The position numbers were made by a program, and so were the translations under genes. The notes beneath the pieces are model-generated. The model was not told where the DNA came from, did no database searches, and saw nothing but the letters and a program-made list of their open reading frames with translations. DNA of 64,000 nt. It comes from Myxococcus stipitatus. Its GTDB lineage: Bacteria; Myxococcota; Myxococcia; Myxococcales; Myxococcaceae. Shown piece by piece: positions 47,710-64,000 of this stretch. The DNA lies in contig NZ_CP102770.1 in NCBI RefSeq assembly GCF_038561935.1, positions 1,984,001 through 2,048,000 on the forward strand. The letters are read 5' to 3'. How positions within the stretch are numbered: the first letter of the stretch is position 1; each line of letters opens with the position of its first letter.

Positions 47710-48901
47710 CCGGGGTCTTCACGGCCTCGGCCTCCCCGGGCGCACCGAGGCGGCGGCAGTCGCGGAGGAGGGTGGCGGCGTTCTGCAGGCCCTCCTCCTG
47801 CTTCTTCGTCGCCTTGCCCTTCGTGCCGTCCTTCTTCGTCGTCGTGGTCGTGGCCACGAACTCGAGCTGCGCGAGCGACTCGTCGAGCTCGATGTTCTCG
47901 GGCGGGATGCCGAGGCGGACGAGGCCTTCGCCGCGCTGCACGCGGAGCAGGGCCTTGCGCTCCTCCTCGCCGAGCCCGGGGACGTCGAACTTCCCGAGGT
48001 CCGCGCGCAGGTCGTGGAGCGCCGGGTCCTTGTCGCTGCCGTCACGCAGGCGCGACTTGTCGATCCACCCGTCGTCCTTGCCGTTCCTGCGGGCCGCCGC
48101 GAGCAGCAGCAGGCGTAGGAACTTCAGGTCGCTCTTGCGGAAACCGCCGAAGTCGTGGCCGTTGATCTCCACGACGTGGCGATCGCCCGGACGCGTCGCG
48201 AGCCGGAGCCGCACGTAGTCGAGGTCGAGCATCGGGTCTTCGATGACCCGCGTGCGGTACTCAGGCGTCAGTTCCTCGAGCGCGCGGGCCAGGTCCATGC
48301 CTCCGCGCGCGTCGAGGGCGAGCTCGAAGGGGACGATCCTATCGACGGCGGTGAGCGCCGTCGGGGGCTTCTTCGCCACCAGGACGATCATCCCGTCGAC
48401 GCCCAACTCGGCGCGCGTGCCCCGGCAGAGCTGCTCGAAGCCGAGCTTCGGCGCGCGCAGCCAGACGACGGCCACGTTGAGCCCTCGCCGGCGAACGAGA
48501 CCGACGCCGAGGAACGGCTTGGGCACCTTGCCCGTGAGCAGGGTGAGGCCGTTCCGGGCCGCGAGCTTCGCAAAGACGTCCTTCGCGCGGCACCGCAGCC
48601 CCTCGACCTCGGTGCGCTCGACCCACTTCCAGCCCGGCCAGCAGGGCGGTTCCTCGGGGCACGCCACCCCGACGAGCTTCTCCGAGGCGCGGAGGTTGTA
48701 GTTCAGGTTCGGCAGGCAGCCGCGCTCGCAGTCGGGCGGCTCGTAGTCGTCGTCCTTGCCGTACTCGAGGACGCGCTCGCGGACGCAGAGCACCGGCTCC
48801 GCGCCTGCGGCCATGACCTCGGCGTACGAGACGCGCGCGTCGTCACTGCGCCGCAGCTTCGAAAGCAGCAGCGTCCAGGGGAGAACGTCGTCCGCTGGCA
48901 T
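47675..48901 (-). CDS. Unknown protein of the repressor operon (408 aa)
   Basis: The start is ATG 48901, inside the end of the upstream gene, with AAGGAG 10 nt before it. The product starts MPADDVLPWTLLLSKLRRSD. It has a Cys pattern CVRERVL...CERGCLPN...CPEEPPCWPG in the first 90 residues, then LLTGKVPKPFLGVGLVRRRG. The end is Lys/Thr-rich. It converges with the primase-helicase gene, overlapping it by 35 nt. No family is recognised. It may be an effector controlled by the XRE/ImmA pair. Confidence 0.72.
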   Translation of the reverse strand: MPADDVLPWTLLLSKLRRSDDARVSYAEVMAAGAEPVLCVRERVLEYGKDDDYEPPDCERGCLPNLNYNLRASEKLVGVACPEEPPCWPGWKWVERTEVEGLRCRAKDVFAKLAARNGLTLLTGKVPKPFLGVGLVRRRGLNVAVVWLRAPKLGFEQLCRGTRAELGVDGMIVLVAKKPPTALTAVDRIVPFELALDARGGMDLARALEELTPEYRTRVIEDPMLDLDYVRLRLATRPGDRHVVEINGHDFGGFRKSDLKFLRLLLLAAARRNGKDDGWIDKSRLRDGSDKDPALHDLRADLGKFDVPGLGEEERKALLRVQRGEGLVRLGIPPENIELDESLAQLEFVATTTTTKKDGTKGKATKKQEEGLQNAATLLRDCRRLGAPGEAEAVKTPATSRRASRGGT

Positions 48902-50036
48902 CGATGCCCCACTCCTTCAGGTAGCGACGGATGACGCGGTCGCGCTCCGTGTCGTTCAGGTTCGAGCTGTTCGGGTTGAAGAGGCTGACCGTGCGGTACT
49001 TCTGACGGCCCTTGCCCTCGAAGCGGAACTGCAGCCGGACGCCGTGGATCTCGTCGCTCGCGAGGCTCACGCCGTGCTCCTCGAGGAGCGAGCGCACGTC
49101 CGGCACGCTGAAGCCCGCCTTCATCTCCACTGTTACGCGCTTGACGTCGCGACTCGCCGGCTTCGCGACCACGCGCACGATTGAGACTTCCTCGATCTTG
49201 TCGAAGCCGCGCACCGGGAAGTCGAAGTCGTCGTCGCGCAGCGGGTCGAACGAGAACTTCGGGCTATTGGTCGTGTCCTCGAAATAGCCTGCGTCGCCGA
49301 TGAAGAGCTGGGCGAACAGGTCGCGCAGCTTCTCGCGCTCGGCCACGCGCGGCGCCTTCACAAGGAGCGTCGACGTCTCGAACTGGAAGACAGCCGCGAG
49401 CCGCACAACAGGCCGCTGCCAGTCCGGCTCCACCACGCCCTTGTTGGTGAAGCGATCGAACGGGGCGACCTCGTCCTCGTGGTAGATGAAGAGCGCGAAC
49501 TTCTCGTCGTTGGCGAAGTCCTCGACCTGGCAGCGTGCGCCGAACGCGGTCTCGCGGAAGTGGCTCGCCATCGCCGCCTTCATGGCGGCCTTGGCCTGGG
49601 CGGTGGGCTTTAGCGACACCGGGTAGCCCCCGTGGAACTCGGTGAGGTGCTCCATCATGTCGAGGACGTGGGCCTGGTGCGCCTCGAGGAACCGCTGCTC
49701 GTCAGCCACGAACAGGCGAACCGCGAGGTCCTGCGCCGACCACGCGCGGCTGTCCTCGACGAGGTGGGCGTGCCCGTTGGTCCAGACCTGCACCGCGAGC
49801 CGCTCGAGGTAGGGGCGCGCGTGTGGCCCGCACAGGTCGTTGACCGGCAGGAGCTTCGTCTCGAGCGCCACCCGCTCGGCCTCGGGGAGCGCCTTCCACG
49901 CCCGATAGACCTGCTCGCCCACCGCCCCCTCGCCATCGAGCACGAGCTCGACAGCGGCCCATTCGAGCAGCACCTCGAGGGCGTCGGGGGTGAGGTGGCG
50001 GAAGAAGGACTTCGGGTTCCATTCGCGGTTGGCCAT
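48843..50036 (-). CDS. Unknown protein of the repressor operon (397 aa)
   Basis: I chose ATG 50036 since TGGAG precedes it and an operator lies just upstream. The product starts MANREWNPKSFFRHLTPDAL and is helical over its first 140 residues (LEVLLEWAAVELVLDGEGAV). The middle has beta strands with EDFANDEKFALFIYHEDEVA, and the C-terminal part has VKRVTVEMKAGFSVPDVRSL and SVSLFNPNSSNLN-like features. No family is recognised. It forms a pair with the next gene through a 59-nt overlap. Confidence 0.72.
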   Translation of the reverse strand: MANREWNPKSFFRHLTPDALEVLLEWAAVELVLDGEGAVGEQVYRAWKALPEAERVALETKLLPVNDLCGPHARPYLERLAVQVWTNGHAHLVEDSRAWSAQDLAVRLFVADEQRFLEAHQAHVLDMMEHLTEFHGGYPVSLKPTAQAKAAMKAAMASHFRETAFGARCQVEDFANDEKFALFIYHEDEVAPFDRFTNKGVVEPDWQRPVVRLAAVFQFETSTLLVKAPRVAEREKLRDLFAQLFIGDAGYFEDTTNSPKFSFDPLRDDDFDFPVRGFDKIEEVSIVRVVAKPASRDVKRVTVEMKAGFSVPDVRSLLEEHGVSLASDEIHGVRLQFRFEGKGRQKYRTVSLFNPNSSNLNDTERDRVIRRYLKEWGIDASGRRSPLDAAAFEAAAQ

Positions 50037-50055
50037 GCGTTCTCCAGATGGGTGG

Positions 50056-50070
50056 CTGTTGCCTAAACAG
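50056..50070 (-). promoter_or_regulatory. Operator palindrome of the XRE regulator (copy 1)
   Basis: CTGTTGCCTAAACAG is a palindrome with CTGTT/AACAG arms and a 5-nt centre. It lies between ImmA/IrrE and the 397-residue gene. The same core recurs at 51179. Confidence 0.65.
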
Positions 50071-50108
50071 GGGACATCGAGAGCGAACGAAACCGCTCCC
50101 CCCACACT

Positions 50109-50792
50109 TCAGAAGAGCCGTCCTTGCGCGCCGTCGACGACGAGCTTCAGGGTCTCCAGGCGGATCTGCATCGCCTGGTTCGACACGTTGGTGAAGCCGC
50201 CGTTTGCGATGACCTCGGACGCGAAGTCTCGCAGCTCGGAGATGCGCTCGCCGGCCTGCTTGCGGGCGAGGAGGTTGCCGATGGCGAGCGGCCCGCCGCT
50301 CACGTGCTTCACCGCCGCGCGTACGTCGCTCGCGGGCATGAGCAGGAACGCCGAGAACTTGTCGGCCTGGATCTCAGCCGGGTCGCGCTGGCCGTCGCGG
50401 CAGACGATGGCGGCCGTCGCCTTGGCGCCCGGCTCGCGCGAGAACAGCGGGAACGTGACCGTGTCCATCTCGCGGAGCGGGCGGTGGAGCTGCCAGTGGC
50501 CGAGCTCGTGACTGAGGGTGAAGCAGTAGCGGCCCTCCTTGCCCTCAAGCGACGAGTCGATGACCACCAGCGCGTCGTCGAGCCACGTCGCGCCGAGCAC
50601 GTCGGGCTTGCCGAGCTTCGTGCGGAGGTCGCCCATCTCGAGGGTGAGCCCGAGGACACCCTCGGCGAGCGCGTCGACCGGGATTGGCGGGCGAGGCGCC
50701 TCGCCTTTCCACTTGGCGTACCGGCGCAGCAACTCCTGAGCGGCGCTCTCGATCTGCACGTCCGAGAGGAACGGGACGTTGGTCGACATCAC
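50109..50792 (-). CDS. ImmA/IrrE-family metallopeptidase
   Basis: The 227-residue protein has HELGH at residues 95-99 in FTLSHELGHWQLHRP and a later DPAEIQADKFSAFLLMPASD with the third ligand region, the ImmA/IrrE signature. These peptidases cleave a partner XRE repressor upon a signal such as DNA damage. It overlaps the XRE gene by 4 nt. It likely triggers induction of this phage. Confidence 0.9.
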   Translation of the reverse strand: MMSTNVPFLSDVQIESAAQELLRRYAKWKGEAPRPPIPVDALAEGVLGLTLEMGDLRTKLGKPDVLGATWLDDALVVIDSSLEGKEGRYCFTLSHELGHWQLHRPLREMDTVTFPLFSREPGAKATAAIVCRDGQRDPAEIQADKFSAFLLMPASDVRAAVKHVSGGPLAIGNLLARKQAGERISELRDFASEVIANGGFTNVSNQAMQIRLETLKLVVDGAQGRLF

Positions 50793-51139
50793 CGTTTCCC
50801 CTTCTTCTGCTGTGCGTCGAGGAGCTTCATCAGGTCCGCGCCGGAGAGGTTCTTCTCGCCGACGGTGCGCAGGAACTCCGGCATCGTGGGGTCAGCCTTG
50901 ATGACCTTCTCGACGTCCTCGGACACGCGGCCCGCGAGCGTCATCAGCTCGTCGAAGTCGTCGTTCAGCAGCGTCGCCAGCTTGCGGATGACGTCCTCGG
51001 CTGGCTGGCTCTTCTCCTCCATCGTCTCGATGCGCGACAGGTACGTGGGCGAGATGCCGACCTTTGTGGCTGTCTCGCGGAGACCAAGCTTCAGCTCAGT
51101 CCTCTTGCGGCGGAGGCGTTCTCCAAAGCGTTCCTTCAC
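50789..51139 (-). CDS. XRE-family repressor
   Basis: The 116-residue protein starts MKERFGERLRRKRTELKLGL, followed by RETATKVGISPTYLSRIETM as helix-turn-helix (about residues 20-40). The C-terminal part KNLSGADLMKLLDAQQKKGK may be the cleavage or dimer segment. It heads the ImmA operon. Operators at 50056 and 51179 flank the operon, fitting autoregulation. Confidence 0.88.
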   Translation of the reverse strand: MKERFGERLRRKRTELKLGLRETATKVGISPTYLSRIETMEEKSQPAEDVIRKLATLLNDDFDELMTLAGRVSEDVEKVIKADPTMPEFLRTVGEKNLSGADLMKLLDAQQKKGKR

Positions 51140-51178
51140 GTGTCCTCGCTCAGCACCTCAGCAGTAGGGCCTGATGTA

Positions 51179-51192
51179 CTGTTGCCTAAATA
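51179..51192. promoter_or_regulatory. Operator of the XRE regulator (copy 2)
   Basis: CTGTTGCCTAAATA shares 12 of 14 bases with the operator at 50056. It lies 40 nt upstream of the XRE start, within the divergent control region. Confidence 0.6.
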
Positions 51193-51244
51193 CTAGACGG
51201 GTAGGGGCAGTCAAGGGGGCAAGCGTTCGCTGGACGATCTTTCT

Positions 51245-51276
51245 GTCCCACCGCACGCGCCGGGCCCGCGTTTCCC
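51245..51276 (+). promoter_or_regulatory. Phage-type promoter element, copy I (recombinase cassette)
   Basis: On the plus strand GTCCC, 21 nt, TTTCCC, then ACCC and a GTG at 51281. It is the only plus-strand copy and leads to the serine recombinase cassette. Confidence 0.7.
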
Positions 51277-51280
51277 ACCC

Positions 51281-51469
51281 GTGAACGCGACCACCCCGAC
51301 GCCGCCGCCGCGCGCGGCTCTAGCCGTCACGGAGAGCGCCGACGAGCGCCGCGCCGACGTCGAGCGCCGGCTCGATGAGGCCGCCGACGTCATCGCCGAG
51401 ACGCTCCTCGACATGTGGCGCAAGGAGCAGCGCGCCCGGCGCGCGGCCGCGCGCGGAGGTGCGTCGTGA
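51281..51469 (+). CDS. Small helical protein at the cassette start
   Basis: The GTG start at 51281 is 4 nt after the TTTCCC box, so it may be read from a leaderless message. The 62-residue product has a helix ADERRADVERRLDEAADVIA and a basic end. It overlaps a possible GTG start of the next gene (GTGA at 51466). No family is recognised. Confidence 0.6.
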   Translation: MNATTPTPPPRAALAVTESADERRADVERRLDEAADVIAETLLDMWRKEQRARRAAARGGAS

Positions 51470-51570
51470 CGTCCGCGCTCTCTCCGGCTCTCGCCTTGTC
51501 TTCTACCGGGGAAGAAGCCGTCATGCCGACGACGCGCGAGCACGGTGCGCGCGCGAACGACGGAGGCACG

Positions 51571-52143
51571 ATGACCAACAAGACGACCGCCAGAGCCCGC
51601 GCCGCGATGCGCGAGCTCGATGACGTCCCCACCCAGCTCGCGGCGCTCGAGACGATGAGCGTCGGCCAGCTCGCCGAGAAGTGGCGCGAGCTCTATGGCG
51701 AGCCGACGCGCACGCGGAACAAGGACTACCTGAAGAAGCGCCTCGCCTGGCGCATCCAGGAGCTGGCCGAGGGCGGGCTCTCGCAGGGCGCGCTCGCGCG
51801 CATCCACCAGCTCGGCGACCAGATGCCGGAGCGTTGGCGCATGCGTTGGAGCCAGGGCCACGCCGCGAGCGACGCGCCCGCGCCGACGGAGGCGCTGCAG
51901 GTGGTGCAGGCGACCGAGCCGCGGGACCCGCGCGTGCCGCCCGTAGGCACCGTCCTGCACCGCGTCTTCGACGGCAAGGCCCACGAGGTGACAGTCTGCG
52001 CGGAGGGCTTCGAGTACGCGGGGCAGCGGTACAAGTCGCTGTCTGCCATCGCCACGGAGATCGCCGGCACGCGCTGGAACGGGTTCCTCTTCTTCGGGCT
52101 CAAGAAGCGCGGCGAGTCGGCGCGCGAGGAGTCCGCGGCATGA
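51571..52143 (+). CDS. DUF2924 protein, recombinase cassette
   Basis: The ATG at 51571 has GGAGG 4 nt upstream; a GTG at 51466 (GTGA overlap, also with GGAGG) would add 35 residues. The 190-residue product has the DUF2924 core: LAALETMSVGQLAEKWRELY, RNKDYLKKRLAWRIQELAEG and RVPPVGTVLHRVFDGKAHEV. DUF2924 genes are frequently next to recombinases. A role as a directionality or accessory factor is plausible. Confidence 0.82.
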   Translation: MTNKTTARARAAMRELDDVPTQLAALETMSVGQLAEKWRELYGEPTRTRNKDYLKKRLAWRIQELAEGGLSQGALARIHQLGDQMPERWRMRWSQGHAASDAPAPTEALQVVQATEPRDPRVPPVGTVLHRVFDGKAHEVTVCAEGFEYAGQRYKSLSAIATEIAGTRWNGFLFFGLKKRGESAREESAA

Positions 52144-52322
52144 GCGACTTCTTCCGCACGCAGATGGGCCACCGCTTCTACGAGTCGACGATGCCGTCGC
52201 TCGTGCGGGAGCTCGCGCGGCTCAACACGAACCTCGAGCGGCTCCTGGCCGTCGTCGAGCGCGAGGCCGCGAAGCCCGACGAGGGTGAGCCCACGCCCGC
52301 CCCGTCGAAGGAGCCGCGATGA
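52140..52322 (+). CDS. 60-residue cassette protein
   Basis: It overlaps both neighbours by 4 nt (ATGA) and has GAGGAG upstream. The protein MSDFFRTQMGHRFYESTMPS... is helical in its middle (LVRELARLNTNLERLLAVVE). It is probably a partner or regulator of the recombinase. Confidence 0.68.
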   Translation: MSDFFRTQMGHRFYESTMPSLVRELARLNTNLERLLAVVEREAAKPDEGEPTPAPSKEPR

Positions 52323-53869
52323 CCAAGCAGCGCCAGCGAGCGAGCGCGCCCGCGCCAGAGACGAAGCGCTGCGCCATCTACACGCGCAAGTCGACGACGA
52401 TGGGCCTCGAGCAGGAGTTCAACTCCCTCGACGCCCAGCGCGAGGCGTGCCTCGCGTACATCGAGCGGCAGCAGGGCTGGACGCTCGTCGACGAGCGCTA
52501 TGACGACGGAGGCTTCACGGGCGCGAACATCGATCGCCCCGCGTTCCAGCGGCTGATGGCCGACGTCGACGCCGGAAAGGTCGACGTCATCGTCGTCTAC
52601 AAGGTCGACCGCCTCTCGCGCTCGCTGCTCGACTTCGTGAAGGTGATGGAGCGCCTCAGCGCCGCGGGCGCGTCCTTCGTCTCCATCACCCAGAACTTCT
52701 CGACCGCCGACGCCATGGGTCGGCTGACGATGAACATGTTGATGAGTTTCGCGGAGTTCGAACGCGAAATGATCAGCGAGCGGACGCGCGACAAAATCGC
52801 TGGCGCCCGCCGCAAGGGGAAGTGGACGGGCGGCCCGGTGCCCTTCGGCTACTCGGCGAAGGACAAGAAGCTCGTCGTGAACGAGGCCGAGGCCCACGTC
52901 GTGCGCGAGGCCTTCACGATCTTCCTCGCCCACCGGCAGATGGCCGTCGTCGCGCGCGAGCTGAACAAGCGTGGGCTGTTGCCGCGTGCCTCGAAGCATG
53001 GGCGCAAGGGCGGCCCGCTCTGGAGCAAGGACAGCATCGCGCGTGTGCTGCGGAGCCCGCTCTACGCGGGGCGCATGATGTACGGCGACGAGCTGTACGA
53101 GGGCGAGCATCCTCGGCTCATCGACGACGTCACCTACCGCCAGGCTCAGAAGCTCCTCAGCATGGCGGGCCGCGAGCTCCGCGTGACCGGCACAAACCCC
53201 GAGTACGTGCTGCGCGGGCTCCTGCGCTGCGGGCTCTGCGGCGAGGCAATGTGCCCGGGCTCGACCACGAAGAAGAGCGGGAAGACGTACCGATTCTATA
53301 GATGCTCAACCCGCGACAAGTACGGCACGGACAAGTGCTCCGCGAAGCCGCTGCCCGCGCGCGCCATCGAGGACTTCGTCGTCGCGCGCATCACGGAGGC
53401 GACCGCCGACGGCACGTTGGCCGAGCGCATCCAGGCCAAGCTGGCCGCGCGCGTCGCGAAGGAGTGCACGACCTTCGTCGAGGTGCGCAGGGCCCTGTCG
53501 GCGCACATCGCCGATGCATCCGCCGCCGCGTCGAAGCTGACCGAGGAGGTGATGCGGCTCGACGGTCGCGCGCGCGAGCTCGTCGAGGCGAAGCTGCGCC
53601 TCGAGGCCGCGCGGCTCGATGATGCCGAGCGCAGGCTTCGCGCGCTCGAGGACGACGCCGTGAACCTCGAGCTGCTGGAGAGCCAGCGGGATTGGTTCGT
53701 CGGCGCGCTCCGCAACTTCGGCAAGGTGTGGAGCGACATGACGCCCGAGAACCAGGGACGCCTGCTGCGCGCGCTGGTCGCCGAGGTCAACGTCGACGAG
53801 GAGACCGGGCTGTGCCGCGTCGAACTGGTGAACTTCGACGCCGCCGCGAGCGCGAAGGAGGCCGCGTGA
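52319..53869 (+). CDS. Large serine recombinase
   Basis: The 516-residue protein has the resolvase catalytic domain, with Ser 25 in YTRKSTTMG and YKVDRLSRS, then FAEFEREMISERTRDKIAGA. The recombinase domain follows (VPFGYSAKDKKLVVNEAEAH, RVLRSPLYAGRMMYG). A zinc ribbon has CGLCGEAMCPGS and a later Cys pair, and a coiled coil ends the protein. It would catalyse integration at att sites. It lies at the right end of the phage region. Confidence 0.92.
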   Translation: MTKQRQRASAPAPETKRCAIYTRKSTTMGLEQEFNSLDAQREACLAYIERQQGWTLVDERYDDGGFTGANIDRPAFQRLMADVDAGKVDVIVVYKVDRLSRSLLDFVKVMERLSAAGASFVSITQNFSTADAMGRLTMNMLMSFAEFEREMISERTRDKIAGARRKGKWTGGPVPFGYSAKDKKLVVNEAEAHVVREAFTIFLAHRQMAVVARELNKRGLLPRASKHGRKGGPLWSKDSIARVLRSPLYAGRMMYGDELYEGEHPRLIDDVTYRQAQKLLSMAGRELRVTGTNPEYVLRGLLRCGLCGEAMCPGSTTKKSGKTYRFYRCSTRDKYGTDKCSAKPLPARAIEDFVVARITEATADGTLAERIQAKLAARVAKECTTFVEVRRALSAHIADASAAASKLTEEVMRLDGRARELVEAKLRLEAARLDDAERRLRALEDDAVNLELLESQRDWFVGALRNFGKVWSDMTPENQGRLLRALVAEVNVDEETGLCRVELVNFDAAASAKEAA

Positions 53870-54336
53870 GAGGCGCCGAGAGCAGAGAGGAGAGCGCGAG
53901 GAACAACACGGACGCCGAGGGCGACGAGTTCCGCGTCATTGAGAAGCCGCTCTTCCGCCGGAGGAGCCGGAGCGTCACGCTCGCCGAGGCGCCGCCGCCC
54001 GCGAAGCCCGAGCCCGTGCGCCGGCCCGCGAAGGTCGCCCAGCAGCTCGCCCTCGCGCACCACCTGCAGGCGGCCATCGACCGGGGCGCGGTCGCAGACC
54101 GGGCCGCCGTGGCGCGGAAGCTGGGCCTCACGCGGGCGAGGGTCACCCAGCTCCTCGACCTCTTGCTGCTGGCACCCGATCTCCAAGCTGCCGTCCTGGC
54201 CCTCGAGGCCGTCGACGGCGCTGAGCCGATGGCCGAGCGGACCCTCCGGGCGGTGGCGCACGCGGGGACGTGGGCCGAGCAGCGGGTGGTGTGGACGGAA
54301 GTCTGCCGAGTACGTGCGGACTCACATTCGCGTTGA
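53866..54336 (+). CDS. HTH protein at the end of the recombinase cassette
   Basis: The GTG start overlaps the recombinase stop (GTGA). The 156-residue product has a Pro-rich middle and a helix-turn-helix VADRAAVARKLGLTRARVTQ at about residues 85-104, like ParB/KorB-type helix-turn-helix. It could control the cassette or bind att sites. Confidence 0.72.
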   Translation: MRGAESREESARNNTDAEGDEFRVIEKPLFRRRSRSVTLAEAPPPAKPEPVRRPAKVAQQLALAHHLQAAIDRGAVADRAAVARKLGLTRARVTQLLDLLLLAPDLQAAVLALEAVDGAEPMAERTLRAVAHAGTWAEQRVVWTEVCRVRADSHSR

Positions 54337-54362
54337 CAGATGCCGACATGGATGGCTATTCT
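54333..54362 (+). promoter_or_regulatory. Sigma-70-type promoter of the defence-like operon
   Basis: TTGACA (54333-54338), an 18-nt spacer and TATTCT (54357-54362). It overlaps the end of the HTH gene and precedes a GTG at 54370. It is a different type from the phage elements. Confidence 0.7.
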
Positions 54363-54369
54363 TTTGGTT

Positions 54370-55755
54370 GTGAGGCCGCACGTACCAGCCAATTTCATTG
54401 CGCCGTCCCTTCTGGGAGCCGCTCCCGGCTGGCTGCCGGCGTACTTTGCCGGCGAGACCGCAATCGCGCTGCGAGCGGGAGTCGCCGGCCAGACGATCGA
54501 TGACTTGGGGGGGCAAGTCCTCGAGGGCTGGCGGGTGAGCGAGACGCCGACGGCGCTCGACTACGATCCCCGCGCGGCCTCCACCCCGGTCTATCGCCAG
54601 GCCAACATCAAGCCGCTGCGGCTGCAACTCGGCGCCCAGGACTGGGCCTCGCCCCAGATCGAGGGGCGCTGGTGCGTGCGGCCCGGCGATGTGGTGCTGA
54701 ACAAGCTCGCGCCGGTGCGCGCAGCCTTCGTCTCGCCGGCAGCCAAGCGCCACCCGGTCGATGGCAACACGCTCATCGTCCGCGACCTGTCGCGCGCGGA
54801 GGCGGCGTGGGTCGCGCTGTGCCTCAACCATGCGGGCTACGAGCGGCTTCTGTTCCTCGACTCGGGGGTGCTCGATCGCGTGGGGCTCAAGGCGCTCGCC
54901 GCGCTGCGCGTGCCGCCGGTCCCGCCGGAGATGGACGGCCTCTCGGCCCGCCTGCGCGACGCGCTGGACGAGCAGACGCTGACGAGCGAGGCGATGCACC
55001 ATGTCCGCACCGAGGCCAACGAGCTAACGAGCGCTGCCCCGACGACGACACGCCCGCTGCGCAGCGGCGCGTTCTTCGCGCGCGACGCCGTGACCCACGA
55101 GAGCTGGCTGCCCTCGGCCACCGCGCTGCGCGCCGAGCAGACCAGCCTCGCCGAGGAGCTGGGGTGGGTCGCGATCGCTGAGCTGGCATCCTGGGACGAC
55201 CGCGCCCGCCTCACGCACGCTTCCGAGGGCGCGCGGGCGCTGCGTCTCCGCGACGTCGGCGAGGACCTCTTCGTCGCCCCGATCGACGACGCGAAGGAGG
55301 AGCTCGTCCCCAGCCGCACGCTGGCGAGGCCCCTCGTCCCCGGCGAGGTGCTGCTCTCGACGCTCGGTAGCAGCTTCCGCACCGCATACGTCGACGACGA
55401 CGTCCCGCAGAACACCTTCCCGACCGACGGCTGGGTGCGCGTGCGCTTCCGCGAGACGCCGGCCGCGTGGGCGCTCTTGCTCTCGACCGACGAGCTCCGC
55501 TCGCAGGCCGCGCGGCTCGTGGTGGGATCGGTGCAGCAGTTCGTGCCGCCCGAGGCGCTCCGCTCGTTGCGGGTGCCGGTGCCGCCGCGCGAGGTGCGTG
55601 ACCGCTGGCAGCGCGCCGTCGAGCGCCATCACGCACAGCGCCGCACGCAGGACCGCCAGTGGGCCGCGCTCGTGAGCGAGATGACCGCCCTGTTCGAGGC
55701 CGCTCACCGGCCTTTCGCCGAGACGCGCCCGCGTGACAAGGAGTCGGTCCAATGA
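54370..55755 (+). CDS. Type I specificity subunit-like protein (HsdS)
   Basis: I chose the GTG at 54370, 8 nt after the -10 box; an upstream ATG at 54340 would lie within the promoter. The 461-residue product has two recognition-type halves: VYRQANIKPLRLQLGAQDW and GRWCVRPGDVVLNKLAPVRA, then a mirrored second half with RTLARPLVPGEVLLSTLGSS. Each ends in a helical spacer. HsdS dictates the methylase target. It is first in an operon with HsdM- and ATPase-like genes. Confidence 0.82.
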   Translation: MRPHVPANFIAPSLLGAAPGWLPAYFAGETAIALRAGVAGQTIDDLGGQVLEGWRVSETPTALDYDPRAASTPVYRQANIKPLRLQLGAQDWASPQIEGRWCVRPGDVVLNKLAPVRAAFVSPAAKRHPVDGNTLIVRDLSRAEAAWVALCLNHAGYERLLFLDSGVLDRVGLKALAALRVPPVPPEMDGLSARLRDALDEQTLTSEAMHHVRTEANELTSAAPTTTRPLRSGAFFARDAVTHESWLPSATALRAEQTSLAEELGWVAIAELASWDDRARLTHASEGARALRLRDVGEDLFVAPIDDAKEELVPSRTLARPLVPGEVLLSTLGSSFRTAYVDDDVPQNTFPTDGWVRVRFRETPAAWALLLSTDELRSQAARLVVGSVQQFVPPEALRSLRVPVPPREVRDRWQRAVERHHAQRRTQDRQWAALVSEMTALFEAAHRPFAETRPRDKESVQ

Positions 55756-56132
55756 CGCCGCGCCAGGCCGAAGAGCTGCTCTCTCACCTGAAGCTGAAGG
55801 CGCTCGGCCTCGACGAGCTGCACGAGCGCGTGCGCCTCTCGGGCAGCGCGTGGACGCGCGACCAGCTCGAGCTCTTCCTGCTCTGTGCGCGCGGCGTCAC
55901 GCGCGACGGCACGGGCGGGTTCCACGCCATCGCTGCCAGCGCTGAGGACGACCTCGGAGCGGCCATCGTCGCGGCCGTGCGCTCGTTCGCGGGCAAGCCC
56001 GTGCCGGCCGCGCAGGTGCGCGCGCGCCTGCCTCAACACTTCGTGACGACCGACGAGCAGGTGCTCGCCGTTGCCCGACGCACCGCTGGGCTCGAGGTGT
56101 TCGGCCCGAAGCTCATCCGCATCGCCCCGTAA
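55752..56132 (+). CDS. Small protein between HsdS- and HsdM-like genes
   Basis: The 126-residue protein starts MTPRQAEELLSHLKLKALGL (4-nt overlap). It has a likely winged-helix-type end (PVPAAQVRARLPQHFVTTDE, LEVFGPKLIRIAP). No family is recognised. It may be a DNA-binding part of the complex. Confidence 0.72.
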   Translation: MTPRQAEELLSHLKLKALGLDELHERVRLSGSAWTRDQLELFLLCARGVTRDGTGGFHAIAASAEDDLGAAIVAAVRSFAGKPVPAAQVRARLPQHFVTTDEQVLAVARRTAGLEVFGPKLIRIAP

Positions 56133-56149
56133 GCGCTCAGGAGACCCGC

Positions 56150-58207
56150 ATGGCGGCCAAGAAGAAGCAGCAGCAGAACGCAGAGCACGCGACGACGGTT
56201 GCCTCCGAGGAGAGCAACCTCCTCAAGTCGATGGTCCACCGCCTCTCGGGCGCGGGCTACGATCATTCGCTCGACCTCAAGGCCAGCGAGCCCGGCATGT
56301 CGGCCGCCGTCGTCTGGGGCCGCCATGAGGGCGTCGAGACGCCGCGCATCCTGGCGCTCGTGCTGCCCACCGGCGCGTGGGGCCGCGCCAATGCCGATGA
56401 GGTGCAGGTGCTCTCGTACTCGCTGCCGCCGCCCGAGACGCCGGCCGACCAGTACCCGCAGTTCGCCATCGTGAAAGACGCCGAGGGCAAGCTCGAGGCC
56501 CTCTTCGACCTCGCGTACCCGCCGCACCAGATCGACAAGCTGCCGAGCCTCTCGGAGATCAACGACTACAAGCGGATCAAGGCCGACCCGACCTACCGGT
56601 GGTCGATGCACATGTACGACCGGCTGATGAAGGGCTTCAACGCCCTGCACGAGCGCATCTACCAGACGCACAAGGACCGGGTGAACGGCAAGAACGACAT
56701 CATCGAGGAGGTGGCGAAGCTCCTCTTCCTCGAGTCGTTCCGCCTGCACCATGATGACGGAGGGGGCGCGCTCACCTTCGAGCACGAGGGCAAGAAGCTG
56801 AGCCTGAAGGACGTCTTCACCGCGGCGCACGTGAAGGCGAACGGCGCCAAGGCGGTCGCGGAGATCCAGTCGGCGTTCGAGCACTTCAAGATGCACCCCG
56901 ACTACGTCGTCACCGACGACGCCGGGGAGAAGCACGCCATATTCGACAAGAACGCCCACCTGCGCCTGGCGCAGCCGGGCAACTACGAGGCGGTGCTCTC
57001 GCTCATTCAGGACCTCGGCCCGGTCACCGACAACCGGGGCAGCGTGGTGAAGAAGCAGGGCACGCTCGCCGACATCGCCGCCGACGTGCTCGGCCGCGCC
57101 TTCGATGTCTTCCTTCGCGCGAACTTCGAGTCAAAGGGCGGCCTCGGCATCTACCTCACGCCGGCGCCCGTGAAGCAGGCGATGCTGGCGCTTGCCTTCC
57201 ACGACATCAAGGAGAGCACCGAGGACGCCGCGCGCCTCGTGGCTCGCGACGGCAAGGGCCGCCCCGCCTTCCGTTTCTGCGACCCGGCGTGCGGCAGCGG
57301 CGGGTTCCTCTCGGTGGCACTGAGCCACCTCCGGCGCACGCTCGACGAGCTCGGTGGCAAGGCCACGGCCACCGACGAGGCGAAGAAGAAGCTCTTCGCC
57401 GAGATGTGCGAGCACAGCTTCGTGGGCGCCGATTCGGCGCCCCAGATGGTGATGCTCGCGCGCGTCAACATGGCACTACTCGGTGCTCCCAAAGCGCGCA
57501 TCTTCTGGGGCGACTCGCGGACGAGCCCCCAGTTGGTGCCCGGGACGTACGACTTGATCTGCACCAACCCTCCGTTCGGCACGCCGAAGCTCCAGGGCGA
57601 CGCGAAGAGGGCGCACGAGGCGGAGATGGCGAAGATCCTCGAGACCTTCCGATCCGACCTGACGCCGCGAGCCGGGCGCGGCGGCGGCTTCGACTACTCG
57701 CCCACGGTCACGGGCCTGGCGATGGGCGGCTCGCCCAACAGCAAGGGCGTCTGGAAGGAGGCCTCAACCAACACCGATCCGGCGGTCCTCTTCATCGACC
57801 GCTGCCTGCAGCTGCTCAAGCCGGGCGGGCGCCTGCTGATCGTGTTGCCCGACGGCGTGCTCTGCAACTCCGGCGACCGCTACGTGCGCGAGTACATCAT
57901 GGGCACGAAGGACGAGGTCACCGGCGAGTTCCACGGCGGCAAGGCCATCGTGAAGGGAGTTATCAGCCTACCGGCCGACGCCTTCAAGCTCTCGGGCACG
58001 GGCGCGAAGACGAGCGTGCTTTACGTGCAGAAGCGCCACGCGCGCAAGGACGACCCCGAGAAGTTCCAGGACGAGCCGCAGACCGACGTGTTCATGGCCG
58101 TCGCCGAGACCCTCGGCTACGTCGTGAAGAACAACGTCGAGGACTACAGCGCGGGCGTCCCCAACGACCTGGCCGCCATCGTTGGCGCGTACGTTCGGGG
58201 GGAGTGA
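56150..58207 (+). CDS. Type I N6-adenine DNA methyltransferase (HsdM-like)
   Basis: The 685-residue protein has the methylase motif I FCDPACGSGGFLSVAL (about 377-392) and motif IV ICTNPPFG (about 470-477). The first 330 residues are an N-terminal domain that is larger than in common HsdM, with strands RILALVLPTGAW and helices NDIIEEVAKLLFLESF. It has no visible E-x-K nuclease core. It would methylate host DNA at the HsdS-defined site. Confidence 0.9.
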   Translation: MAAKKKQQQNAEHATTVASEESNLLKSMVHRLSGAGYDHSLDLKASEPGMSAAVVWGRHEGVETPRILALVLPTGAWGRANADEVQVLSYSLPPPETPADQYPQFAIVKDAEGKLEALFDLAYPPHQIDKLPSLSEINDYKRIKADPTYRWSMHMYDRLMKGFNALHERIYQTHKDRVNGKNDIIEEVAKLLFLESFRLHHDDGGGALTFEHEGKKLSLKDVFTAAHVKANGAKAVAEIQSAFEHFKMHPDYVVTDDAGEKHAIFDKNAHLRLAQPGNYEAVLSLIQDLGPVTDNRGSVVKKQGTLADIAADVLGRAFDVFLRANFESKGGLGIYLTPAPVKQAMLALAFHDIKESTEDAARLVARDGKGRPAFRFCDPACGSGGFLSVALSHLRRTLDELGGKATATDEAKKKLFAEMCEHSFVGADSAPQMVMLARVNMALLGAPKARIFWGDSRTSPQLVPGTYDLICTNPPFGTPKLQGDAKRAHEAEMAKILETFRSDLTPRAGRGGGFDYSPTVTGLAMGGSPNSKGVWKEASTNTDPAVLFIDRCLQLLKPGGRLLIVLPDGVLCNSGDRYVREYIMGTKDEVTGEFHGGKAIVKGVISLPADAFKLSGTGAKTSVLYVQKRHARKDDPEKFQDEPQTDVFMAVAETLGYVVKNNVEDYSAGVPNDLAAIVGAYVRGE

Positions 58208-59724
58208 TGGTGCGCCCTGAACGACATGTCCGCGTTCGTGCGGTCGAGTTCAGCCCCGAGCGACTCGACACTGGCTTCTACGCTCGTGCCTACTTCGACA
58301 CCCGCGAGGCCATTCGCCAAAGTGGACTGAAGACCGAGTCGCTCGGCAGCGTGTGTGAACCGTGGCAGTTCGGCGCGTACGCCTTGTGCAACCACATCGA
58401 ATGGAGCGACGCCGCGAGCGGTGTTCCGTACGTCAAGGCTGAGGCGCTCGGCAGCCCGCTCTTGAACGAGTCGGGTCTTGCGTATGTGACGCCAGCCACT
58501 CATCGACTGCTCGAGAAGTCTCAGCTCAAGCCGGGCGACATCGTTGTCTCGACGTCTGGAACCATTGGCCTGTGCGCCGTGCTCCCCGAACGCCTGGGTG
58601 ATGCGAATTCGAACCAAGACACGATCAAGTTCAATCCTTCGTCTGCGGGATACGATTGCCATTTCGTCGCCGCGTGGGTGGCGAGCGCGCCCGGACAGGT
58701 CTTTCTTAATCGCGAGGCTGGTGGCGCAGTCCAGCAGCACGTCTACCTTTACAACTTCAAGCGCTTGCCCCTGTTGAAGGTCGCGGCCGAGGCCCAGCGC
58801 TACATCGGCGACAAGGTTCGGCAGGCCGAGCGGCTGCGCGAGCGCGCGCGCCGACTCGAAGCCGAGTTCCGCAGCGCCGTGACCGTCGCCATCCCGTCGT
58901 CGTCTTTGATGGCAGGCAAGACGAGCCGCGTGGCTACCGGCGAACTGGGACGCAACCTGAATCCCGGCGCGTACACCCCGGACCGTCGCGCCGTCCGCGC
59001 AGCAATTCGAGGTGCAGGCGGCCGGTCGCTCGACACGCTGGCCGATGTCGAGAGCCCCACGACCGATAGCTATCCCGCCACCGCGCCGTACCTGGGGCTC
59101 GACGCCATCGACTCGGCAACCTGCGGATTGAAGCCCTCGACGGCTGGAGCCGAAGCGGTCGCAGGAGCCGCGCGCCTCCTGCGTGAAGGTCCGGCACTCT
59201 CGCGCCTGCGCCCGTACCTCAACAAGGTCACATATATCCCGCCCACGCTCGCAGGTGGCATCGGTTCGACCGAGTTGCTCCTCGTTCGCCCGAAGGCTGG
59301 CGTCGATGGCTGGTTCCTCTACGGTGTGTTGAAGCTCGAATCGAGCGTCCGCCAGCTCAACCCCGTGGCGACGGGCTCGACGCATCCGCGCGTTGATCGC
59401 GAGGACGTTCTCGATCTCCTCGTGCCCTGGCGCGATGAGCACGAAGCTCTCGGCGCAAAGCTGCGGACCGCGCAGGCCTGCTACCGCGCGAGCGCCGCGC
59501 TAACTGTGACCGCGACGACCCTGGTCGAGCACCTGATCGACGGTCGCATGACCGAGGCAGAGCTGGTCGCCGCGCAGAAGGCGCTCGAGGCCGGCGACCG
59601 CAGCGCGGACCGCGAGATCCTGAAGGCGCTCGTGCAGGGCGACGCGCCGGACGCCAAGCCGGTAATCGCCGACGTCGACGCGCTCTACGCGCTCCTTGAT
59701 GGGTCGGAGGGGCCGGACGCATGA
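58207..59724 (+). CDS. Second HsdS-like specificity protein
   Basis: It begins at ATG 58207 within TGATG and has 505 residues. The start VRAVEFSPERLDTGFYARAY and the two halves, with LKPGDIVVSTSGTIGLCAVL and, later, the RPYLNKVTYIPPTLAGGIGS-type segment, are HsdS-like. Two HsdS genes around one HsdM is unusual and may give two targets. The coding looks less GC-biased than its flanks, a sign of exchange. Confidence 0.82.
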   Translation: MVRPERHVRVRAVEFSPERLDTGFYARAYFDTREAIRQSGLKTESLGSVCEPWQFGAYALCNHIEWSDAASGVPYVKAEALGSPLLNESGLAYVTPATHRLLEKSQLKPGDIVVSTSGTIGLCAVLPERLGDANSNQDTIKFNPSSAGYDCHFVAAWVASAPGQVFLNREAGGAVQQHVYLYNFKRLPLLKVAAEAQRYIGDKVRQAERLRERARRLEAEFRSAVTVAIPSSSLMAGKTSRVATGELGRNLNPGAYTPDRRAVRAAIRGAGGRSLDTLADVESPTTDSYPATAPYLGLDAIDSATCGLKPSTAGAEAVAGAARLLREGPALSRLRPYLNKVTYIPPTLAGGIGSTELLLVRPKAGVDGWFLYGVLKLESSVRQLNPVATGSTHPRVDREDVLDLLVPWRDEHEALGAKLRTAQACYRASAALTVTATTLVEHLIDGRMTEAELVAAQKALEAGDRSADREILKALVQGDAPDAKPVIADVDALYALLDGSEGPDA

Positions 59725-60902
59725 CGCTCTCGGCGCTCCAGGGGCGGACGCTCACGCGCCTTGTCGAAGACGTGCGCACGCTGCTCGCGCAGGGCGAGGC
59801 GCCGTCTTCGTCCTTGCGCGCCCTGGATGCCGTGCGAACGACCGGGCTCTGGAGCGAGCGTGGTGAGGTCGCCGTTGCGAGCCCCGCCATCGTCGCCCTC
59901 ATCGACCGGCTGCCGAATCCGGGCGAGGCGCTGCCCGCCGTGCTGTCGCTCGTACCCGAGGTGCGCGAGGCGTGGCTGCGTGTCGTGCGCGCGCGCCTCG
60001 CCGAGATGGGCGAGCGCGGCGACGTCGCGGCGCTGACCGAGGCCATTACCAATGCTGGCGCGCTGGCGAGCGAGCTTGTGAGCGTGCAGGGGGCGTCGCT
60101 GGCGGCGACCGCGTTCGGCGAGCTGGAACGCGCGGTGCTGGCGACGCCCGCGCACGAGGCCGCCGCGTTCCCGGTGCTGCTCCGCGCGTTGGCCGCCACC
60201 GCCGCGCTCCCGACCGACCCGACCACGGCGACGCTGCCGACTGCGCTGCCCGAGGTGGCGTTCGACGATCCGCAGGCGACGTGGCGACCCGGTCGCCTGT
60301 TGCGTCTGCCCGCGCCGACCGAAGCCGCGACCACGACGGTGGTCCTGAGCGGCGCGCTCGACGGCAAGAGCGGCGACGCCGACCCGATGCGCTGGGCGCT
60401 GCACCACCCGTGGGTGTTCTTGTTGGCGCAGATGACCTTCACCAAGGAGGCGTGGGAGGCCGAGCGCGTGTCAGGCGGTATCGCTTTCGAGCTGGAGCCC
60501 GCGCACGCCTCGCTGTTTCAGATCCCGCCGCGCATCGAGGTGGTGGTGACCTTGCCGAGCGGCGAGGAGATCCGTTGCGGCTCGCTCGGCGAGCTCTGCC
60601 AGCGCACCCTCGCCCAGCTCGGCGTGACGGTGCTCGGCCACCGCGTCACCGCGAGCACCCTCGACGACAAGCTCGCCCTCGTCATCGAGGCCGTGCAGCG
60701 CCGTGATGTGTGGCGCTTCGAGCATGGCTCGGGCGCGCGACGTCCGGCCTACACCATTCACCCGTCATTCTCCGACGCCTGCTACCGGGCGCTCGGCAGC
60801 CGCGCGTTCTACCGGCTCGGCTCGCCGGTGACGGCCGCCATCCGCCGCGCCTCCGAGGGCTGGGCCAGGGAGCGCATCGCGCGCGCCGGAAGCAACGCAT
60901 GA
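59721..60902 (+). CDS. Unknown protein of the methylase-ATPase operon (393 aa)
   Basis: It overlaps the previous gene by 4 nt. The protein is Ala/Leu-rich and helical for 200 residues (LIDRLPNPGEALPAVLSLVP). The second half is beta-containing: HPWVFLLAQMTFTKEAWEAE and IPPRIEVVVTLPSGEEIRCG. The end is helical. No known family is recognised. Confidence 0.72.
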   Translation: MTLSALQGRTLTRLVEDVRTLLAQGEAPSSSLRALDAVRTTGLWSERGEVAVASPAIVALIDRLPNPGEALPAVLSLVPEVREAWLRVVRARLAEMGERGDVAALTEAITNAGALASELVSVQGASLAATAFGELERAVLATPAHEAAAFPVLLRALAATAALPTDPTTATLPTALPEVAFDDPQATWRPGRLLRLPAPTEAATTTVVLSGALDGKSGDADPMRWALHHPWVFLLAQMTFTKEAWEAERVSGGIAFELEPAHASLFQIPPRIEVVVTLPSGEEIRCGSLGELCQRTLAQLGVTVLGHRVTASTLDDKLALVIEAVQRRDVWRFEHGSGARRPAYTIHPSFSDACYRALGSRAFYRLGSPVTAAIRRASEGWARERIARAGSNA

Positions 60903-61939
60903 CGCGCACACTCCACCTCGAGCGCCCGGCGTTCTGGACCGAGACCAGCGATCCGGAGGCGTGGTTCCGCGCGCTCGACGTGCTCGCATCGAAACCGCCC
61001 CAGGTGGGTTCGCCCCGCGCCGTGGCCGACCGCGCGCTCGTGGGCGTCATCTCGCGGCGGGCCGCCATGGGACTCTTCGGCCTCGTCGAGGATCTTCTGC
61101 CCGGCGTCGGGCTCGTCACGCGAGACACCGAGGGGCGGTGGACCGTAAGCGATGAAGCGCAGGTGCTGCTGCGCCGCTGGAAGCAAGCCCCGGCACGCGG
61201 GACCGAGCTGCTCGCCGCGTACCTCGTGCGCGAGAGCGTGTGGCTGCGCCTCTTGCTCCTGCGCCTCGAGCGTCGCGACTGGGAGCTTCACGGCTGGTCT
61301 GAGGTGCGCAGCAGCCGCGCGGGCCTCAAGGCGGGCAGGTCGCTCCTGCTCCACGTGCACGCCGAGCCCGCGCGGTGGTTCGAGAGGCTCGAACGGCAGG
61401 CGGCGGCGCGTTGGCTCGCGCGCGGGCACTGCGACGCGCTCGCCTATGCGCCCGACGTGCTTTCGCGCAAGCCGAGCAAGGACAACCTCTCGCTCACACC
61501 GCTCACGGCACCGCTGTTGTTGCTCGAGTCGGTGGGCTGGCTGTCGCGCACCGGCGCGCTGACGCTGCCCAACGAGATCCTGGCCGATCTCACCGGCACC
61601 GCGACTCCAGCGCAGGCGCTCACCGACCTCACCAGCGGCCACGCCGACGTCCGCGGCTTCGTCGCCGCCGAGCCGGTGCTGCGCGAGCTGCTCGCTACGT
61701 TTGGCGTGAGCCCCAGCGACGAGGCCTTCGCGCGCTGGATGGACGCGCTCGTCGACGAGGCCTCCAGGCGCGGGGCGCTCGAGCTGCTCGCCGTCGAGCC
61801 TGGGCAGGCCCGACACGGGCGCGGCCTCTTCGCCGACCCGACGAAGAAGCTCGTGCGGTGGGTGGTGCACAGCGAGTTCAACGAAGCCTTCCAGAACGCC
61901 TGGCGCGCGCTCAAGACACGACGGGAGCTGACACGATGA
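60899..61939 (+). CDS. Unknown protein of the methylase-ATPase operon (346 aa)
   Basis: It starts by a 4-nt overlap. The product has likely winged-helix modules (RRAAMGLFGLVEDLLPGVGL; TLPNEILADLTGTATPAQAL) and an end KLVRWVVHSEFNEAFQNAWR. It directly precedes the ATPase and overlaps it by 4 nt, so it may be an adaptor. No family is recognised. Confidence 0.72.
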   Translation: MTRTLHLERPAFWTETSDPEAWFRALDVLASKPPQVGSPRAVADRALVGVISRRAAMGLFGLVEDLLPGVGLVTRDTEGRWTVSDEAQVLLRRWKQAPARGTELLAAYLVRESVWLRLLLLRLERRDWELHGWSEVRSSRAGLKAGRSLLLHVHAEPARWFERLERQAAARWLARGHCDALAYAPDVLSRKPSKDNLSLTPLTAPLLLLESVGWLSRTGALTLPNEILADLTGTATPAQALTDLTSGHADVRGFVAAEPVLRELLATFGVSPSDEAFARWMDALVDEASRRGALELLAVEPGQARHGRGLFADPTKKLVRWVVHSEFNEAFQNAWRALKTRRELTR

Positions 61940-64000
61940 CGACGACCAACAAAGCGAAGCACCAGTGGGCGGCGACCGGCGTCTCTTCGTACCCGCTCAC
62001 GCACCCCATCGTGGGCCAGGGCCGCTTCTTCGAGGCGTTCAAGCACTTCATCCACCTCGTCGACGACGAGGCCGAGAAGTTCGCGCACGTGTTCGCGGTG
62101 ATCGCGCAGTGGGGCGTCGGTAAGTCGCGCCTCGGCTACGAGCTGGTGGCGCAGATCAACGACACCTCGCGCGGCTGGTGGGTGCGCGGCGACGACGGCA
62201 GCCTCGGCAAGGCGAGGCTCTTTCACGACGACAAGGACCGCGACCAGTACCTTGGTCTCTATATCCGCTACAGCCAGGTCGCGAACGACTACAACAACGT
62301 CGACAACTGGTTCGCCTACGGCCTCTACAAGGCGCTCCTGCCGCTGGCGCGCGGCACCTTCGACGGCTCGATCCAGGGGCAGGTCGCCAAGGAGGCGAGC
62401 GACCGGCTGACGGTCGCGGGCTTCGACCCGAAGAAGCTCGCCGAGGCGCTGGAGGCATCGAAGAACCACTCCGACGAAACGCTCTACGAAGACCCCGAGC
62501 TGGCGACGCGCCTGTGCCAGGCGGCCTACGCGTACCTCCAGTCGTTCGGCATCAAGTACGTGCTGGTGGTGCTCGACGAGCTCGAGACCGCCGCCGAGGC
62601 GGCGACCTACGGCCTCGACGCGACGGACATCAAGCACCTCGACGGCCGCGCCATCAAGCTGATGGGCAAGGCCATCAAGGAGGAAGACCCGCGCCGCAAG
62701 CTCCCGTGGCTGCGCTACGTCGCGCTCTGCTCGCCGGCCATCGGCGACGAGCTACGCGAGATCCAGTCGACCGCGCGCCGTTTCGAGCTGGCCGAGCTCT
62801 CGTCGAACGCGTTCTCCGACGTGAGCGACTTCGTGCAGACGCTGTCGACCGACGGGCGGCTCGCGGAGTCCTACCCCCAGGGTCTGGTCGAGGCGGCGTA
62901 CGCCATGAGCGCGGGCAACTTCGGCTGGTTCAACGTCGTCATGGCCAGCATCGACGAGCGGCTGCGCGACAAGCGCGCACGCGGCGAGAAGGACGCGCCG
63001 ACAGTGGGCGCGCTCTTCGACGAGCTGGTGCGCGTGTCGGGCCGCGTGCAGCAGCACGTGCTCGACCATCACGCGCTCGAGATGCTTAAGGTCGACAAGG
63101 CGCACCTCCCGGTGGCGCGAGACCTGCTTTACGGCCAGCTCCCGGTCGCGCTCGACAGCGACGCGCCCGAGACGCGCGCCGCGGTGCTCTCGGCGAAGAA
63201 CGAGTACGACGAGCCCATCGCCACGCTGTTCCGCCGCGTCGAGTGGGACGAGCTGGAGGCGGCCGAGGCGCTGCGCGCGTCGAAGTTCACGCGCGACAAG
63301 GGCGTGTGGAGGCTGGGCGGCGTCGATCAGCCGCTCGATCTGCGCCAGCTCCTGTCGAACCTCGGCACCTACGCCATCCACGAGACCAAGGGGCAGCGCC
63401 GCACCGACGGCAAGCACACGCTCGTGGTGCCGCTGCGCCAGAGCGACTTCGTCCACCTCGTGTCGCTCCTCTATCCGCACGCCGCCGCCGAGGACGCCGC
63501 CCGCGCGCTGTGGCGTCGCTTCCTGGGCGCCGACGACCTGACGGCCGACACCGCGACCCACGTGGGCCCCAGCGTCGAGATGATCGCGCGCCTCGACCTG
63601 CGCCACAGAAAGCAAGGCCAGACCTCGCTTATCTTCCGCGACCCGGACCAGAACAGCGCGCACGAGAAGGCGCTCTCGGCCCTGCGCACGCAGGCCGAGC
63701 GGCAGCGTGCCGAGCAGGTGCTGGTCGGCGCGATGCGCGTCATCGACCAACACTGGGCCTACGACGCGGCCCCCTCGGGCATCCGCGACGACTCGCTGAC
63801 CGTCATCGCCACCTCGCCGGTTGCCAAGGGCAAGCAGCCAGGGGGGCTCGTGACCTTCGACGGCCTCAAGCTGCACCCCAAGGGTCGCGTGCTCTTCGCG
63901 TGGGTGAAGAACGACGAGGAGCTGGAGGGCCTGTGCAAGGCGGCGAGCGCGCAGTTCGGCGAGGAGGGCCGCACGCCCGTCATCGCGTTCACGTCGTCGC
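61936..64000 (+). CDS. P-loop ATPase (partial, BrxC-like layout)
   Basis: At least 688 residues are visible; the frame is open at the edge. Walker A is AQWGVGKS (57-64) in FAVIAQWGVGKSRLGYELVA, and Walker B is YVLVVLDELETAAEA (about 208-222). The layout, with an early P-loop and a long C-terminal part, resembles large ATPases of BREX-like systems, but I cannot confirm a family. It is the last visible gene of the operon. Confidence 0.8.
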   Translation, partial: MTTTNKAKHQWAATGVSSYPLTHPIVGQGRFFEAFKHFIHLVDDEAEKFAHVFAVIAQWGVGKSRLGYELVAQINDTSRGWWVRGDDGSLGKARLFHDDKDRDQYLGLYIRYSQVANDYNNVDNWFAYGLYKALLPLARGTFDGSIQGQVAKEASDRLTVAGFDPKKLAEALEASKNHSDETLYEDPELATRLCQAAYAYLQSFGIKYVLVVLDELETAAEAATYGLDATDIKHLDGRAIKLMGKAIKEEDPRRKLPWLRYVALCSPAIGDELREIQSTARRFELAELSSNAFSDVSDFVQTLSTDGRLAESYPQGLVEAAYAMSAGNFGWFNVVMASIDERLRDKRARGEKDAPTVGALFDELVRVSGRVQQHVLDHHALEMLKVDKAHLPVARDLLYGQLPVALDSDAPETRAAVLSAKNEYDEPIATLFRRVEWDELEAAEALRASKFTRDKGVWRLGGVDQPLDLRQLLSNLGTYAIHETKGQRRTDGKHTLVVPLRQSDFVHLVSLLYPHAAAEDAARALWRRFLGADDLTADTATHVGPSVEMIARLDLRHRKQGQTSLIFRDPDQNSAHEKALSALRTQAERQRAEQVLVGAMRVIDQHWAYDAAPSGIRDDSLTVIATSPVAKGKQPGGLVTFDGLKLHPKGRVLFAWVKNDEELEGLCKAASAQFGEEGRTPVIAFTSS

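Follow-up and report, generated by a model that had tools for sequence, protein, structure and literature searches.

The locus and its genes

The window analysed here is a 64,000-nt stretch of Myxococcus stipitatus DNA (contig NZ_CP102770.1, positions 1984001-2048000 of a 10.17-Mb genome), and its right edge cuts in two a 12-gene operon that probably belongs to an unnamed, widespread family of modification-based defence systems. The first seven genes lie inside the window and the rest beyond 64 kb, in the next 28 kb to the right, which were fetched and read; positions past 64,000 continue the window numbering, and adding 1984000 to a continued window coordinate gives the contig coordinate. A first-pass annotation, made from the letters of the window, had described seven genes at 54333-64000. 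These are present from about 54.3 kb in the order claimed, on the plus strand, but the operon continues past the window edge and is about twice as long.

On the plus strand, the window holds S1, an HsdS-like gene with target recognition domains (TRDs) that are not swapped (open reading frame (ORF) 54340-55755, likely 54370-55755), followed by a gene for a 126-aa core protein (55752-56132), an HsdM-like N6-adenine methyltransferase gene, M (56150-58207), and S2, for an HsdS specificity subunit with swapping TRDs (58204-59724). Next come genes for a 393-aa core protein (59721-60902), a 346-aa accessory protein (60899-61939), and a 1414-aa P-loop ATPase (61936-66180, with the window part running to 64000). 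The near-universal 4-nt overlap that had been remarked on holds at five of the six junctions among these genes, the exception being the 17-nt gap between the 126-aa gene and M.

In continued window numbering, the operon goes on with genes for a 272-aa protein (66177-66995), a 381-aa NurA-fold protein (66992-68137), a 561-aa HerA (68151-69836), a 192-aa protein resembling restriction endonucleases (REases; 69829-70407), and a Ser/Thr kinase with TPR repeats (70404-71864). Three non-core genes of a cyclic oligonucleotide-based antiphage signalling system (CBASS) follow at 71861-74975 (L010:3861-6975). Neither HsdR nor PglZ was found by Pfam, PADLOC, or NCBIfam among the 15 proteins of the operon and the CBASS genes. 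The first-pass annotation had reported no HsdR, PglZ, or nuclease in view: the first two are absent to the right as well, but the nuclease claim is valid inside the window alone, as the REase-fold protein is encoded beyond it. Nor does a complete BREX (bacteriophage exclusion) set or an HsdR gene lie to the right of 64 kb, which is what had been named beforehand as the outcome that would refute the proposal.

A conserved ten-gene core

A search with the ATPase through a collection of 84,980 species, each represented by a single genome, returned 31 other loci, and gene order in these relatives was mapped with all 15 proteins. A core of ten genes emerges, encoding the 126-aa protein, M, S2, the 393-aa protein, the ATPase, the 272-aa protein, the NurA-like protein, HerA, the 192-aa protein, and the kinase. 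In 26 of the 31 loci, all ten have the same order and the same strand, and the remaining five are cut by contig ends. Among the hosts are Planctomycetota, Blastocatellia, a cyanobacterium, a Fibrobacter, and a deltaproteobacterial metagenome-assembled genome, along with numerous alpha-, beta-, and gammaproteobacteria.

The first-pass annotation had proposed the 393-aa, 346-aa, and ATPase genes as the set to seek elsewhere. The 393-aa protein does accompany the ATPase in every one of the 31 loci, but a recognisable 346-aa homologue occurs in six only (plus a weak match in the locus L053, described below); by this distribution the 346-aa protein is not core. S1, found in about half of the loci, is not core either. 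McrB-McrC takes the place of S1 as the first module in Enterobacterales, namely in Ewingella, Pantoea, Erwinia, and Escherichia coli (L079:3941-7735 and L080:3722-7516, and also L027, L033, and L038), and in E. coli there is a 4-nt overlap between the McrC and 126-aa genes. The version in E. coli C41 (NZ_CP127252), for instance, comprises 12 genes, McrBC included. What follows the kinase is likewise variable: this slot may hold an AAA_21 ATPase with a putative HNH protein, McrBC, a sacsin-like protein, a protein with a NO VEIN C-terminal domain, or others (for example L025:19955-22476, L026:19933-23459, L034:20065-24210, and L042:20146-24252). More generally, the loci adjoin integrases and defence genes, McrBC and AAA_21/HNH-like genes among them.

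HerA of the operon type is present in 252 of 5426 complete E. coli genomes (about 5%). In the two E. coli loci that were read, HerA adjoins tRNA-Leu, and most of the other genes are annotated as "hypothetical protein." Relatives of the ATPase were absent from the plasmid collection, and three were found in the viral contig collection; one of the viral-contig loci, L076, is probably an integrated island, because its matches coincide with those of the Nitrosomonas locus L041.

L053 (G091:C6:348001-368000), from a genome of the same family as M. stipitatus, is more divergent. Its HerA is 62%, its M 41%, and its ATPase 24% identical to those of the window operon, and its S gene is placed between the NurA-like and HerA genes. 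It is a distant subtype of the same system.

The predicted modification arm

M is HsdM-like: it matches Pfam N6_Mtase (1e-21) and PADLOC MTase_I (9e-249), and its DPACGSG and NPPF motifs are intact. The annotation of two HsdS-like genes needs some care. S2 matches PADLOC Specificity_I at 4e-94 and bears the label plainly, and S1 is clearly related to S2 by profile comparison (E 1e-18), but the direct label on S1 is weak (best PADLOC match, E 6e-5).

The two genes also behave differently among relatives. The window S2 has TRD1 in common with that of L017 and a different TRD2, whereas with L014 and L020 it is TRD2 that is common and TRD1 that differs; in these same pairs, the other core proteins are 67-95% identical. 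No such swapping of halves is seen in S1. Two E. coli strains give the same picture, with S2 only 59% identical and identities of 99% or more in seven other proteins that were compared. On a larger scale, 218 of 230 E. coli genomes have ATPase genes with an identity of 99% or more, whereas for the S gene a match along most of the length is seen in only 17 of 210. Pairwise identities of eight core proteins correlate with one another at 0.79-0.98, and those of S2 correlate with them at 0.42-0.47.

By its behaviour, then, S2 is a genuine specificity subunit. That M and S2 methylate adenines in host DNA, at a target set by the swappable TRDs, is strongly supported by homology together with TRD swapping. 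S2 swaps its TRDs while the other core proteins co-evolve; this pattern is the hallmark of modification-based self/non-self discrimination, in which the target is selected to change and the machinery is shared.

Candidate restriction proteins and the kinase

The HerA protein is a DUF87/HerA ATPase, and its closest solved structure is the HerA of a HerA-NurA complex. Its 381-aa neighbour has no sequence match; its structural model (mean predicted local distance difference test, pLDDT, 81) has the NurA fold, with a Z score of 20.5 to NurA 2ygk, well above unrelated rows, 18.6 to the HerA-NurA complex, and 14.5 to TdpAB. The residues E103, D105/D106, and H290 are kept among members, and D143 nearly always.

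The 192-aa protein is a predicted PD-(D/E)XK protein. The best matches of its model (pLDDT 93) are nearly all REase folds, with Z up to 7.6 (7.3 over 149 residues for BamHI). E57, D76, E92, and E94 are invariant among members, and their spacing is similar to that of the BamHI centre, E77, D94, E111, and E113. With its BamHI-like D..ExE centre, this protein is likely to be the nuclease of the system, although every one of these Z scores is modest.

The kinase carries HGDIKPQN and DFG and should therefore be active. By analogy with PglW and MAD6, it would have a control role.

The ATPase and the uncharacterised proteins

The 1414-aa ATPase carries GVGKS at 60-64 and LDELET at 213. It has no PADLOC or NCBIfam match, and none of 28 members has a PADLOC match. 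Alignment to BrxC by hhalign covers 48 columns around the P-loop (E 0.018). A hit of the ATPase to influenza HA2 chains in a PDB profile search (E about 1e-4) was judged a coiled-coil artefact, and PDB profile searches of the operon's uncharacterised proteins gave nothing useful. The 393-aa protein has no family match in Pfam, PADLOC, or NCBIfam, and no PDB match. The 126-aa protein is possibly a winged helix-turn-helix (HTH) protein, to judge from its sequence.

Proposed mechanism

Our preferred reading, which we hold with reasonable though not full confidence, is of an R-M-like (restriction-modification) system in which HerA, the NurA-like protein, and the BamHI-like nuclease form a restriction arm under kinase control. 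Its marking half is well supported; the restriction mechanism and the defence function itself are what we infer. M and S2 would mark host DNA, and unmethylated DNA would pass to a restriction arm free of HsdR. The ATPase, with the 393-aa and 272-aa proteins, may form a sensing and loading platform; HerA would pump the DNA, with the NurA-like protein sitting on it as a partner whose catalysis is perhaps lost. The 192-aa protein would be the most likely cutter, and the kinase would set the on/off state by phosphorylation.

Several observations weigh against this reading. The motif I Asp of NurA (DGS), present in the canonical NurA (L081) with which the NurA-like members were compared, is missing in all 30 aligned members; its place, located by sequence and strand order and not by structural superposition, holds Ser, Ala, Gly, or Val. 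Because this residue is lost, the NurA-like protein may be a non-cutting partner, or may use altered ligands. Every REase-fold match of the 192-aa protein falls below Z 8, a range open to chance. The roles proposed for the ATPase and for the 393-aa and 272-aa proteins are read from position and co-conservation only, and the operon may instead act in plasmid partition or purely as an epigenetic module.

CBASS genes in the post-kinase slot

The three genes that follow the kinase encode a SAVED protein, a CD-NTase cyclase with AGS_C, and a DUF4365-like protein. Each overlaps the preceding gene by 4 nt, the first of them at the operon end. Their matches are AGS_C 1e-23, PADLOC cyclase 1e-63, and SAVED 6e-39, and a cyclase and an effector, the make-up of CBASS, are both present. 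The N-terminal 170 aa of the SAVED effector resemble ABC-three component proteins. We suggest that these genes are an independent back-up system that has come to lie in the post-kinase slot.

Comparison with known systems and alternative explanations

It is worthwhile setting the operon beside the systems that it most resembles. With type I R-M it has in common an HsdM and an HsdS with two swapping TRDs; it differs in having eight other co-conserved genes, and a standard type I system is ruled out, as HsdR is absent from the operon and from the conserved gene order of the relatives. BREX, including Pgl (type 2), also pairs a methylase with a large P-loop ATPase and, in type 2, with a kinase, but the operon has no PglZ and does have an HsdS, HerA, and a NurA-like protein. 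To the BREX models of PglX, M gives only weak matches (best E 1.7e-4, 19 of 900 bits). BREX and BREX-related systems (PMC12839542) are ruled out by the lack of PglZ and by an ATPase that is not BrxC by profile; the BREX-related capture systems carry PglZ and no HsdMS (PMC12839542).

HerA-NurA and TdpAB have a HerA adjoining a NurA-fold protein, as here, but the operon couples these to adenine methylation, not to repair or phosphorothioation, and its NurA motif I Asp is lost. In the HerA/FtsK capture systems, a HerA-type motor likewise stands alongside other defence proteins; these comprise ORC/Cdc6 ATPases, D5 helicases, or DndFGH parts, with no HsdMS mentioned (PMC10853773). McrBC, a type IV system, contributes McrB-McrC to the E. 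coli version of the operon as an alternative first module only, whereas the window has S1. DUF499 systems were set aside, as PF04465 has no match in this genome. By the tests run, the operon works like modification systems of the BREX, MADS (methylation-associated defence system), or Tdp kind, yet belongs to none of them. The first-pass view of an undescribed methylase-ATPase operon of defence type, fitting neither BREX nor plain type I, is borne out to that extent.

A further comparison is with MADS, which the first-pass annotation did not consider, and one might read the operon as a divergent MADS subtype with the same working parts, the large MADS proteins having been split or exchanged. 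The two have in common a type I-like M and S, a Ser/Thr kinase, a HerA-type domain, and a modification-based logic. Profile comparisons relate M to MAD2 (E 3.5e-40), S2 to MAD5 (3.7e-33), the kinase to the kinase domain of MAD6 (1.6e-36), and HerA to the C-terminus of MAD8 (8e-6), although for MAD6 and MAD8 it is these domains that are common and not the whole proteins. Against the NCBIfam models, the scores fall far under the cut-offs: M reaches 132 bits for MAD2 (E 1.8e-38; cut-off 720), S2 110 bits for MAD5 (cut-off 400), and the kinase 124 bits for MAD6 (cut-off 460). No operon protein gives an NCBIfam or PADLOC match to MAD1, MAD3, MAD4, or MAD7, which are without counterpart, and six operon proteins (the ATPase and the NurA-like, 393-aa, 272-aa, 192-aa, and 126-aa proteins) have no profile match to MAD3, 4, 6, 7, or 8. 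In the operon, moreover, HerA and the NurA-like protein, the REase-like protein, and the 1414-aa ATPase are proteins of their own, and the gene order is another; the canonical MADS locus L055, in which all eight families were verified, differs from it in both genes and order. With the M and S2 scores where they are and four MAD families unmatched, we do not assign the operon to MADS, and a subtype relationship seems unlikely to us.

Two other explanations change what the operon is for. All 15 co-directional genes might be one system, in which a missing methyl mark, sensed by the ATPase, HerA, and the kinase, activates the CBASS cyclase and SAVED effector; if true, this would be a restriction-type sensor driving a second-messenger response. 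The 4-nt overlaps of the SAVED, cyclase, and last genes invite that idea, and a cyclase with SAVED is standard CBASS equipment, but CBASS genes accompany none of the 31 relatives, where other genes fill the post-kinase slot, and of 189 genomes searched in the phylum, no other contains a close SAVED relative. We think it most improbable. Alternatively, the operon might be an epigenetic or mobile-element maintenance module, serving for example HerA-driven DNA segregation or transfer, and not defence. HerA-type pumps do serve DNA transfer too, and the islands that hold the loci also carry integrases, primases, and a serine recombinase; even so, restriction of unmarked DNA accounts better for TRD swapping in S2 and for the REase-fold subunit, and the E. 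coli loci that were read are islands in the chromosome with no transfer genes inside the operon. We think this explanation very unlikely.

Promoter and operator-like repeats

A sigma-70-like promoter, TTGACA-18 nt-TATTCT, lies at 54333-54362 (plus strand). It is the sole such site in 13 kb, where shuffles give 0.3, and the promoter call of the first-pass annotation is thus confirmed. Upstream of the relatives' operons, TTGAC is kept and the -10 hexamer less so. Although the S1 ORF opens at ATG 54340, the promoter -10 sits downstream of that codon, and the start is therefore likely to be GTG 54370, which is the codon matching the start in close S1 homologues.

The promoter is flanked by an operator-like repeat, with copy 1 (GTACGTGCGGACTCACA) at 54310-54326 (plus strand) and an inverted copy 2 at 54369-54385 (minus strand), across the S1 start codon. 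The pattern GTACGTGNNNNNTCACA is found at these two places (within 54310-54385) and nowhere else in the 10.17-Mb genome. The pair is kept with at most one mismatch in four relatives (L013, L015, L017, and L020) and is degenerate in a fifth related locus. This conservation points to a putative operator, through which the promoter would be repressed, perhaps by the 126-aa protein or by S1.

Neighbouring genes and other loci

To the left of the operon, the window encodes a GmrSD-type restriction endonuclease (37154-39043, minus strand). The interval 41232-54336 holds a DinG-like helicase, a 910-aa protein that has no Pfam match and looks primase-like by eye, a serine recombinase (52319-53869), and, immediately upstream of S1, a small HTH-like ORF; this interval is possibly an integrative element carrying the operon. 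Elsewhere in the phylum, four loci (L050-L052 and L054) are MADS-like, with M, S, and a 1400-aa double-kinase protein, and most also have a 540-560-aa protein; within the stretch read, none has all eight MADS genes.

Significance

No name or description of the ten-gene set was found in the open-access literature, subscription papers and preprints being outside that search. None of the named systems in the libraries that were searched matches it, and most of its core genes are annotated as "hypothetical protein." It is important to remember, however, that the core is constant across several phyla, that only its recognition subunit swaps, and that about 5% of complete E. coli genomes carry it; on these grounds, it should be a real defence system. 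In such a system, type I-style methylation would be coupled to a motor of the HerA-NurA type and to a protein kinase.

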